Positions 11,658-14,722 of a stretch of 17,153 nucleotides of DNA are shown here, piece by piece; the stretch's first letter is position 1, and every line of letters begins with the position of its first letter. The notes below the pieces were generated by a model. That model worked only from the letters and a program-made list of their open reading frames with translations. It did no database searches and was not told where the DNA came from. The position numbers and the translations under genes were made by a program. Origin of the DNA: Gordonia sp. UBA5067 (GTDB lineage Bacteria > Actinomycetota > Actinomycetes > Mycobacteriales > Mycobacteriaceae); contig NZ_DIAX01000036.1 in assembly GCF_002414845.1 (NCBI RefSeq), positions 1 to 17,153 on the forward strand. Reading direction: 5' to 3'.

Positions 11658-11677
11658 CCCTGTTTGCAACACGAATG

Positions 11678-11725
11678 TCATAAAGCAGCGCCGACTCACG
11701 CTGCTGGATGACATTTGCGCTGCGC
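11678..11725 (+). repeat. 48-nt palindromic element, left copy
   Basis: AATGTCAT (11674-11681) and AGCAGCG (11684-11690) pair with CGCTGCT (11699-11705) and ATGACATT (11708-11715), leaving an 8-nt loop and two A-G mismatches. GTTTGC (11662-11667) and GCAAAC (11724-11729) can extend the stem. The stretch 11678-11725 aligns without gaps to 12732-12779 with 38 of 48 identical bases. The A-T pair at 11684/11705 is a T-A pair in the right copy. It lies between the YbjQ-family gene and the nuclease-like gene. Confidence 0.8.
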
Positions 11726-11759
11726 AAACGCGCCCGGATCAGCCTGCTGCGCGAATGTC
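11710..11759 (+). repeat. Second, overlapping inverted repeat before the nuclease gene
   Basis: GACATTTGCGC (11710-11720) pairs with GCGCGAATGTC (11749-11759) over 11 positions, including one G-U pair. The left arm is part of the right arm of the preceding hairpin, so the two structures exclude each other. GACATTCGCGC, the reverse of the right arm, occurs exactly at 12764-12774. Confidence 0.6.
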
Positions 11760-11796
11760 GGGGAACCGACGGCCGGTGGGCCGCGTCTAACTGGGC

Positions 11797-12765
11797 ATGA
11801 CACCCTATCCCCGCGATGCCTACGGCCTGATCCGTCGTGCGGCCGCCAACGCGGTCGATATCTCCGACCATGAACTGCGAACATCCGTTGTGTCCGGTCG
11901 ACTCCTGCGTCTGACCCCTGGCGTGTTCGTCGAACCGAGTAACGAGTTCGATGGACCCGCGGGCCGCGACCGATTCTTTCGGCTGCGGTCGATCGCCGTT
12001 GCGACCTCCGACGCCGATCGCGATCTGGCGCTGAGCCACACCTCCGCGGCCACCATGCACGGCCTTGCCCTCCTGCGCCCTGATCAGCGATGCGTGCATC
12101 TCACCAACGGACTCGGCGCCGGTGGACGGATCCGCGCGGGCCGGCATGTCCACTCGGCGCCCTTGACCCCCGGGGAGACCGTGCGCATCGAGGGCGTCGC
12201 GGTCACCTCGCTGGCACGCACAGCGGTCGACGTCGCCATCATGGGCGACTTTGCTCAGGCGCTCACCGCGTTCGACGGTGCACTGCGGTCGACGGCCGAT
12301 CGAGACATCATGGGTTGCACGCTGGCGGCGAGACGCCGTGGAATCCGTGCGGCCCAACGGGCGCTCCCCCTGGCCACGAACAGCTCGGAGAGCGTCGGTG
12401 AATCGTGGAGTCGCGCGCAGATGATTGACGCCAAGATCCCGCCGCCAACCTTGCAGCAGTCCTTCCGCTGCGCCGGCGGAAACTATCGCGTCGACTTCTG
12501 GTGGGAGGCCCACCGGCTAATCGGCGAGTTCGACGGGGCGATCAAGTACGGCCAGTCGCGCAGGCCCGGCGAGTCGATCGAGCAAACCGTCATGCGCGAG
12601 AAGCGGCGCGAGGACGAACTACGCGCACTCGGGTATCTAGTTCTCCGGTGGACCTGGGACGACCTCCGCACCGGGAAGATGGTGCCGCTCCTCCGGTCGT
12701 GGATCAACCGACCCGCCGAGCAGCACCATTCTCATCGTGCAGCGCCGATCGGCGCTGCACGATGA
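11797..12765 (+). CDS. AbiEi-like N-terminal / DUF559-type PD-(D/E)XK nuclease-fold protein
   Basis: A 322-residue protein with two parts. Residues 1-50 look like the winged-helix start of type IV toxin-antitoxin AbiEi-like regulators (ELRTSVVSGRLLRLTPGVFVEPS), followed by a middle region with LALSHTSAATMHGLAL and VTSLARTAVDVA. Residues 195-300 match the DUF559/Vsr-like nuclease fold: ESVGESWSR (Glu202), YRVDFWW (Asp233), LIGEFDGAIKYG (Glu244, Asp246) and REKRREDELRALGYLVLRWTW. Such fusions are common in actinobacteria and their role is not settled; DNA cleavage is inferred from the motif set. No SD or clear -10 lies before the ATG. The last residues (HSHRAAPIGAAR) and the TGA are encoded by the right palindromic element, and a related element lies upstream. 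There is no toxin partner beside it. It ends 16 bp from dinB, tail to tail. Confidence 0.85.
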   Translation: MTPYPRDAYGLIRRAAANAVDISDHELRTSVVSGRLLRLTPGVFVEPSNEFDGPAGRDRFFRLRSIAVATSDADRDLALSHTSAATMHGLALLRPDQRCVHLTNGLGAGGRIRAGRHVHSAPLTPGETVRIEGVAVTSLARTAVDVAIMGDFAQALTAFDGALRSTADRDIMGCTLAARRRGIRAAQRALPLATNSSESVGESWSRAQMIDAKIPPPTLQQSFRCAGGNYRVDFWWEAHRLIGEFDGAIKYGQSRRPGESIEQTVMREKRREDELRALGYLVLRWTWDDLRTGKMVPLLRSWINRPAEQHHSHRAAPIGAAR

Positions 12766-12779
12766 CATTCGCGCTGCGC
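12732..12779 (+). repeat. 48-nt palindromic element, right copy, overlapping the gene end
   Basis: Positions 12732-12765 form a perfect 34-nt palindrome: TCATCGTGCAGCGCCGA is followed directly by its own reverse complement. The next 14 nt (ending TTCGCGCTGCGC) match the left copy. The element is in the same orientation as the left copy, with starts 1054 bp apart. Its ATGA supplies the stop codon of the nuclease-like gene. For dinB, transcribed leftwards and ending at 12782, the palindrome could act as a terminator. Confidence 0.85.
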
Positions 12780-12781
12780 GA

Positions 12782-13849
12782 CTATCGCAGGTCGGCGGTC
12801 GGCACGAGGTCCAGCCGGACGCCCAGTAGTCGAACTGCCCGCCCGGATTCGAAGTCGTCGAGCAGGTCGTGCACCACCGGTTCGATCCTCTCGAGGTCGA
12901 CGGTGGCCGGCGCCAACATACGCGACTTGGTCCGGGTGAAGAATGTGGCGGTACGCACCGTCACCGCCACCCGGGAGACGATGCGCCCCTCGTCGACGAC
13001 CTGCGCCACAACCTCGGCCACCAAACCTTGCAGAGCGGCGTGCAGGTCAGCCGGATCGGTCAGGTCGGTCGGGAACGTGCACGAATGCGAGTGTGACTTC
13101 GCCTCCCACGGCTCGACGGTGATCGTCGAATCACCACCACCGCGGCACAGTACGTATAGCCAGTTGCCCTGGTGGGGACCGAAGGCCGCAATCAAGTCGT
13201 CCCTGGGCGTCGCCACGAGATCGTTCACCGTGCCCACTCCCATCCCCGACAACTTCGCCGCCGTCTTGGGACCAACGCTCCAAAGTTCGCGTGTCGGTTG
13301 CTCACCCATCAACTCGCCCCAATTGTTCGCGTCGAGCGTGAAGATGCGCGGCCCGTAGTCAACAGGTCGTCGTTTGGCGATGTTCGTCGCCATCTTGGCG
13401 CGCTGCTTGTTGTCACTAATGCCGATTGACGCGGTCAGCCCGGTCTGGCGGCGGATCGTCGCGATAATGTCGCCGGCCAACCGGGCCGCCTCCCGATCGT
13501 CGACGGCACCCACCCCCAGATATGCCTCGTCCCACCCCCACACCTCGAGCGGACCGAAACCACCCAATACTGCCATGACCTGCGCTGACGCGTCGTCGTA
13601 GGCCTCAGTATCGAGCGGCAGGAACACCGCCTCGGGCACCTTGCGGAACGCGGCGCGCAACGGCATCCCGGCACGCACCCCGCGCTGTCGGGCCTCGTAC
13701 GACGCGCAGGTCACCACCTTGCGTGCCTGAGTGGGATCCCCGTGCCCGCCGACGATGACGGGTAATCCAATCAACTCGGGGCTGCGCCGACGCTCGACCG
13801 ACACTTGGAACTGATCGAGGTCGACGTGGAGAACACGTGCCGGACCCAC
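12782..13849 (-). CDS. dinB: Y-family DNA polymerase IV (DinB2-like)
   Basis: A 355-residue translesion DNA polymerase. The palm starts with VLHVDLDQFQVSVE, where Asp10 is the first metal ligand. The second site is WGWDEAYLGV with Asp107-Glu108. The fingers motif VVTCASYEARQRGVRAGMPLRAA and the thumb region ELWSVGPKTAAKLSGMGVGTVNDL follow, then a little-finger domain ending VRLLGVRLDLV. The wording of the little finger (EPWEAKSHSHSCTFP) is like mycobacterial DinB2. The steric-gate position, Phe or Tyr in most Y-family enzymes and Leu in M. smegmatis DinB2, is Gln15 (codon 13805-13807). There is no obvious C-terminal beta-clamp peptide. The GTG at 13847-13849 is favoured because a TAnnnT box lies 6 nt upstream and the N-terminus then has normal length. 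It is 57 bp downstream of the lipoprotein gene but seems to have its own promoter. Confidence 0.93.
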   Translation of the reverse strand: MGPARVLHVDLDQFQVSVERRRSPELIGLPVIVGGHGDPTQARKVVTCASYEARQRGVRAGMPLRAAFRKVPEAVFLPLDTEAYDDASAQVMAVLGGFGPLEVWGWDEAYLGVGAVDDREAARLAGDIIATIRRQTGLTASIGISDNKQRAKMATNIAKRRPVDYGPRIFTLDANNWGELMGEQPTRELWSVGPKTAAKLSGMGVGTVNDLVATPRDDLIAAFGPHQGNWLYVLCRGGGDSTITVEPWEAKSHSHSCTFPTDLTDPADLHAALQGLVAEVVAQVVDEGRIVSRVAVTVRTATFFTRTKSRMLAPATVDLERIEPVVHDLLDDFESGRAVRLLGVRLDLVPTADLR

Positions 13850-14679: not shown

Positions 14680-14722
14680 AGCAACAACCTCCAACTCGAT
14701 TCCCGAGTTGGAGGTTGTTGTT
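14680..14722 (-). terminator. Intrinsic terminator after rpoC
   Basis: AACAACCTCCAACTC (14683-14697) pairs perfectly with GAGTTGGAGGTTGTT (14705-14719) around a 7-nt loop. Flanking bases 14680-14682 and 14720-14722 extend the stem to about 18 pairs. On the minus strand the hairpin starts 17 bp past the rpoC stop and is followed by GCTTTC, a partly U-rich tail. Confidence 0.85.

Follow-up and report, generated by a model that had tools for sequence, protein, structure and literature searches.

The stretch of DNA analysed here, called the window, comprises 17,153 nucleotides from Gordonia sp. UBA5067 and corresponds to one entire contig. A gene on the forward strand at positions 11797-12765 codes for a protein of 322 amino acids, described from its open reading frame, Pfam and PADLOC searches and its predicted structure as an AbiEi-like part followed by a DUF559/Vsr-type nuclease. 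The AlphaFold2 (AF2) model of the protein has a pLDDT of 93.8. Residues 1-194 (11797-12378, forward strand) align with AbiEi in structure comparison, and residues 197-308 (12385-12720, forward strand) form a Vsr/I-Bth0305I-type nuclease domain whose best structural match among the chains compared is the catalytic domain of the homing endonuclease I-Bth0305I (3r3p). The residues E202, D233, E244, D246, G247 and R271 are invariant in 74 out of 74 family proteins. The PADLOC models identified the protein as AbiEi with an E value of 1.1e-14, and the Pfam match to PF04480 (DUF559) reached 21.9 bits for a cut-off of 20.6, this family being matched at E<=0.1 by only one of 16 family members. The neighbours of the gene are of the YbjQ and IMS/DinB types, and no AbiEii nucleotidyltransferase toxin is encoded next to it in the window. 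The gene family is multi-copy, with five members in the own genome and matches in 35 of 36 relatives of the same genus, 209 matches in total and 14 of them in one relative.

The gene is bracketed by two palindromes of about 64 nt each, centred at 11694.5 and 12748.5 and given no strand. The upstream (left) palindrome, delimited by sequence, fold, repeat search and covariance model, covers about 11662-11727, and the downstream (right) one covers about 12716-12781. The gapless match of 38 out of 48 bases between 11678-11725 and 12732-12779 reported in the first-pass annotation was reproduced by alignment, and a repeat search extended this pair to 60 nt (11666-11725 and 12720-12779, 77%), the longest repeat found in the window. 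Both copies also fold into hairpins, as had been claimed, with -33.1 kcal/mol for 11661-11735 and, for the right copy, as part of a fold of -56.5 kcal/mol over 12701-12800. The right copy does provide the final codons and the stop of the gene, which ends at 12765; such an overlap is uncommon in the family, the palindrome starting at least 28 nt before the stop codon in 3 of the 48 loci with a downstream palindrome. Each arm contains two direct copies, 19 nt apart, of a half-site A with the sequence GCARCRC, a feature that the first-pass annotation had overlooked, as it had the promoter described below. On the left these are GCAACAC (11666-11672) and GCAGCGC (11685-11691), inverted at 11698-11704 and 11717-11723, and on the right GCAGCAC (12720-12726) and GCAGCGC (12739-12745), inverted at 12752-12758 and 12771-12777. 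In the alignment of five palindrome copies from the own genome the half-site columns are the least variable and the spacers the most variable. The exchange of A-T for T-A at 11684/11705, from which conserved pairing had been deduced, is present, but the pair counts are not clearly above those of shuffled alignments, covariation among the five copies being as high in 67 of 500 shuffles and the paired cells as many in 47 of 500; structures slid along the same copies scored far lower. An additional half-site-like stretch (CTGCTGCGCGAATGTC) lies at 11740-11755, between the left palindrome and the promoter described below, and is perhaps the remnant of a second palindrome. Elsewhere in the window, a hairpin with a loop of 4-5 nt directly 3' of an rpoC-type gene (14682-14720) is of the ordinary terminator type.

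Between the left palindrome and the gene, at 11762-11790 of the forward strand, we found a promoter-like box, GGAACC-N16-CGTCTAA, 6 nt 5' of the ATG, so that the transcript would be leaderless if the box is used. Judged by the SigM consensus, it is probably ECF/SigM-like. Within the 60 nt preceding the start codon, the pattern GGAACC-N15..17-CGTCYAA with at most two mismatches was found at 59 of 69 family loci and before one of 220 control ORFs, where all possible starts among the first 60 codons were allowed. The box stands inside the brackets, and the smallest gap between palindrome and start codon, 36 nt, is about the length of box plus leader. The order palindrome, promoter, gene and palindrome thus makes a self-contained unit.

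The first-pass annotation had proposed to test whether the palindromes cluster around genes of this kind, and they do so throughout the genus. The 69 loci examined were the best match of each of 29 relatives, the five own-genome members and 35 loci chosen among those listed of the 209 same-genus matches. A long palindrome was counted when it scored at least 12, measured at least 40 nt and lay within 250 nt of the gene, cut-offs that were fixed after the first loci had been inspected. By this measure 49 loci have a palindrome upstream, 48 downstream, 37 on both sides and 60 on either side. The fair control, 207 ORFs from 20 stretches of 10 relatives (400 kb), gave 8 upstream, 14 downstream, 22 on either side and 0 of 207 on both, so that an even spread without enrichment near the gene family is not what is seen. 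Stricter cut-offs left 31, 27 and 17 of the 69 loci bracketed on both sides and again none of the controls. Orthologous loci are not independent; the 69 loci fall into 33 locus groups, of which 21 contain a member bracketed on both sides. Among additional loci, 11 of 21 from named Gordonia and 5 of 11 from Williamsia were likewise bracketed on both sides. A control in the own genome (0 of 308 ORFs, 524 kb) is weak, since its contigs were selected for containing family genes or hits of the model, and since the gene of the window escapes the longest-frame ORF caller used for it. The 400 kb of control DNA hold 25 long palindromes, two of which, both in genome G035, resemble family palindromes by eye. 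The scan found no long palindrome at 9 of the 69 family loci, among them a group of three at one locus in three species (L038, L104 and L105); here gene and promoter box are kept, possibly as a domesticated copy. At another locus (L382, in G067) both palindromes remain around a family gene that is broken into two frames, and the genome contains several solo palindromes of that type.

The position of the downstream palindromes, very stable hairpins that begin 0-15 nt past the stop codon in 35 of the 48 loci having one, would suit a transcription terminator, and the first-pass annotation had named a dispersed terminator family as the dull alternative. Bidirectional terminators that resemble one another by common descent would account for this placement. 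However, at least five T in the 10 nt following the palindrome were found in only 1 of 88 palindromes of at least 50 nt in the sense direction and in 2 of 88 in the antisense direction, similar copies stand upstream of the gene, and the sequences are gene-specific and built on half-sites with a 19-nt period. Moreover, at one of the orthologous sites described below (locus A) a short GC hairpin of the terminator type, distinct from the palindrome, belongs to the gene adjacent to the unit. We therefore disfavour this explanation and regard it as highly improbable.

The layout seen in the window recurs in the genus. In 80 palindromes of at least 50 nt, taken from the 69 partly orthologous loci, an arm matches itself at an offset of 19 nt in 60% of positions compared to 28% after shuffling; no other offset from 5 to 27 exceeds 33%, and 19 nt is the best offset in 58 of the 80. 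The element therefore consists of four half-sites, A-19-A followed by A'-19-A'. The palindromes differ between paralogues, and those upstream and downstream of one gene are alike, with a median local score of 44 in 39 pairs compared to 9 between genes. The own partner ranks first in 28 of these pairs, and in the other 11 a palindrome belonging to a different gene, in many cases an ortholog, matches equally well or better. Across different loci the similarity of the palindromes follows that of the proteins (rho 0.29, reached in 0 of 300 permutations). Divided by protein region, rho is 0.28 for residues 1-75 (0 of 300), 0.35 for residues 76-190 (0 of 300) and 0.16 for residues 191-305 (3 of 300), the region 76-190 of the AbiEi-like part thus tracking the palindrome type best.

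In the main rival to a mobile unit, the palindromes are autoregulatory operators: the AbiEi-like protein would repress its own gene through the upstream inverted repeats, and the downstream copy would aid looping. The promoter of AbiEi contains two 23-bp inverted repeats to which the protein itself binds, and Rv2827c binds two such pairs (PMC7319586). The alignment of residues 1-194 with AbiEi and the tracking of palindrome type by residues 76-190 agree with such a role. Against it, the palindrome lies 5' of the promoter box and not over it, the conserved nuclease site is left unexplained, and an operator needs neither an equally strong downstream copy nor the gene-free copies and the inverted, solo and empty states reported below. 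We consider an operator function unlikely on balance.

The genome-wide search with a covariance model, which the first-pass annotation had suggested, did reveal dispersed copies, most of them with no family gene nearby. A model built from three copies found at least six places in the own genome of 3.0 Mb, 150 of 549 first-look candidates having been scored; the window and contig C21 hold two each, and C61 and C33 one each. No family gene lies within 1.5 kb of any of the four that are not in the window. Similarly, the palindrome of the unit in genome G010 occurs at no fewer than seven places there, two at the unit itself and five at which the 3.1 kb fetched contain no family gene. The palindrome of locus L021 is matched in at least 12 of 59 genomes, and G012, G067 and G018 contain many such places. 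Altogether, 44 loci obtained from palindrome searches represent 39 distinct places, and a family gene lies within 1.5 kb at seven of them. If the palindromes were operators, the dispersed copies would be a regulon or decayed operators. At three loci (L366, L370 and L240) gene-free palindromes stand just 5' of a multi-copy gene that, by eye, is of the DUF222-HNH type and 13E12-like, and the palindrome seems to travel along with it. One solo palindrome (L376, G010:1179273) is located at a synteny break; 59 of 59 genomes match its surroundings, mostly in the right flank, and the left flank has its matches elsewhere.

Comparison of flanks showed that units of different species share one place in opposite orientation. 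The flank of locus A is present in 58 of 59 genomes, and 30 of these loci were fetched: 11 contain a unit (three in one orientation, eight in the other), two have a fragment or a weak match to the family, and 17 show no family match. Among these 17, a solo palindrome stands at the same point in G030 and G073, of a type unlike that of most units there, and a degraded palindrome was recognized by eye in G021 and G065. Genomes G017 and G021 are 96% identical across the 2237 nt leading up to the unit. Locus B (n = 30) showed the unit four times in one orientation and five times in the other, once in two pieces, fragments in one case and no unit in 20. The first-pass annotation had proposed to look for empty sites and had held that a gene always present would speak against a mobile unit. 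The unit is in fact absent at orthologous loci, but a clean, letter-perfect empty site with a target-site duplication was not found at the dinB locus of G074 and G008 or at the G010 solo copy. At the locus of the window, the gene order in G074 is ybjQ, another gene and dinB, and a partial family match of 32% lies beyond ybjQ on the side away from dinB; in G008, dinB is immediately preceded by a SixA-like gene. In both genomes, unit and long palindrome are absent between the genes of the dinB locus, and the neighbours differ as well.

PD-(D/E)XK nucleases are frequent in restriction systems, and the turnover of genes at fixed loci could also be seen as a swapping of immunity genes. The enzyme would then be a defence or restriction-like nuclease, and the genomic palindromes its self-marks, decoys or anchoring sites. 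This fits the PADLOC call (AbiEi, E 1.1e-14) and the occurrence of differing palindrome types at one locus in different species; on the other hand, we saw no constant defence partner next to the unit of the window, and palindromes on both sides have no obvious role in defence. We find a self/non-self nuclease improbable, though not as remote as a family of terminators.

On this evidence we lean towards reading the gene and its palindromes as a unit from a multi-copy family of palindrome-bracketed nuclease genes that would work like a REPtron or a homing element. Cognate pairs, solo copies, inversion and empty sites are most simply explained if the palindromes both delimit a mobile unit and serve as the sites that its nuclease recognises. 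The AbiEi-like part may recognise its own palindrome via the four half-sites, and the Vsr/EDxHD-type nuclease domain may cut at or near it; repair by recombination would then copy or swap the palindrome, or the entire palindrome-promoter-gene-palindrome unit, into other sites. Recombination between the two palindromes would invert the unit or delete it, leaving a solo palindrome, and homologous recombination of similar palindromes could give inversions and solo remnants with no need for a special enzyme. Many species carry their units at a small set of shared loci, which is also compatible with inheritance accompanied by inversion and gene conversion rather than with frequent jumps. The REP-like unit of the first-pass annotation is thus strongly supported in its architecture, by genus-wide clustering, gene-specific palindromes and dispersed gene-free copies; binding, cutting and spreading of the palindrome by the protein we infer.

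The symmetric layout with four half-sites is unlike that of the integron attC site, the cassette-like alternative in the first-pass annotation. Palindrome-bracketed nuclease units are already known in kind, and the Gordonia version rests on a different enzyme. As in the REP/RAYT systems, a gene for a DNA-acting enzyme is bracketed by cognate palindromes, copies are dispersed and several co-evolving types exist in a genus (PMC2817692, PMC3116915). However, the REP/RAYT enzyme is an IS200/IS605-like (HUH/Y1) transposase, unrelated to the AbiEi-like and Vsr-type protein, and the Gordonia unit is therefore not a RAYT member. The Gordonia palindromes, mostly of about 56-86 nt with four half-sites and a 19-nt period, differ from REPs; they occupy at least roughly 4 to 15 places per type in the genomes searched, compared to the more than 100 copies given for REPs, and bracketing is not universal (both sides 37/69, either side 60/69), whereas "always" is stated for RAYTs. 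For RAYTs an absence of multiple copies and of changes in chromosomal location is reported (PMC2817692), in contrast to the many paralogues per genome and the units inverted or absent at orthologous sites found here. IS200/IS605 elements are likewise small and flanked by imperfect palindromes (PMC3116915), with an unrelated enzyme. The EDxHD/Vsr-type homing endonuclease I-Bth0305I shares the catalytic fold of the Gordonia nuclease domain, but the Gordonia gene is free-standing, carries an AbiEi-like part and has intact palindromes on both sides instead of a split recognition site. The AbiEi antitoxins of type IV toxin-antitoxin systems share the AbiEi fold; the Gordonia protein adds a nuclease domain, and its neighbours in the window are of the YbjQ and DinB types rather than the AbiEii nucleotidyltransferase. 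Among the papers listed by searches of open-access PMC, we recognised none on DUF559/AbiEi genes with palindromes. The Gordonia family appears to be an independent counterpart of the REP palindrome/transposase systems found in other bacteria, the standard model for the spread of short bacterial palindromes. A second arrangement, in Actinobacteria, with an unrelated enzyme, many paralogues per genome and sister species that show empty, solo or inverted sites, would make co-evolution of the REP type testable by comparison, and the paired types of protein and palindrome form a natural set for reading the DNA-recognition code of the AbiEi-like domain.

The promoter box, which allows a direct test of when the units are active, is common to other genes. 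With a fixed N16 spacer, the pattern has 24 matches at no more than one mismatch in the own genome, compared to five for the reversed pattern. They include all five family genes, three of them exactly; some are likely due to chance (by eye, three seem to lie within genes), and no ORF closely follows one of the exact matches. The box also precedes genes of EspC-like (above the Pfam cut-off), DUF6802-like (below the cut-off), M23 peptidase, GmrSD/HNH and DUF4192 types. An exact box (L388/L412, G000:C40:44790) lies 3.8 kb 5' of the genome's two WXG100 matches (48563-49141), on the same strand; a frame of 626 codons on the opposite strand, from the longest-frame ORF list, separates them, so that a common operon is not established. 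In Mycobacterium smegmatis, SigM activates esxUT of ESX-4 upon cell contact in conjugal transfer (PMC10906988). We infer that the Gordonia box is that of SigM, and from the SigM-driven expression of ESX-4 the units may be homing elements whose activity is tied to mating. The nuclease would be made when foreign Gordonia DNA arrives, and cutting at the palindromes would copy or swap units and palindromes between donor and recipient chromosomes. Selfish palindrome elements of such a new class, which would have converged on REPtrons and whose nuclease would be expressed from an ECF (SigM-like) promoter common to ESX-type secretion genes, are a speculative extension that we hold to be doubtful. The same promoter box, with one mismatch, also precedes further AbiEi-like genes of another subfamily (L405 and L403), the first with weak REase_MTES_1575/DUF559 matches below the cut-offs and the second AbiEi-like by eye only.
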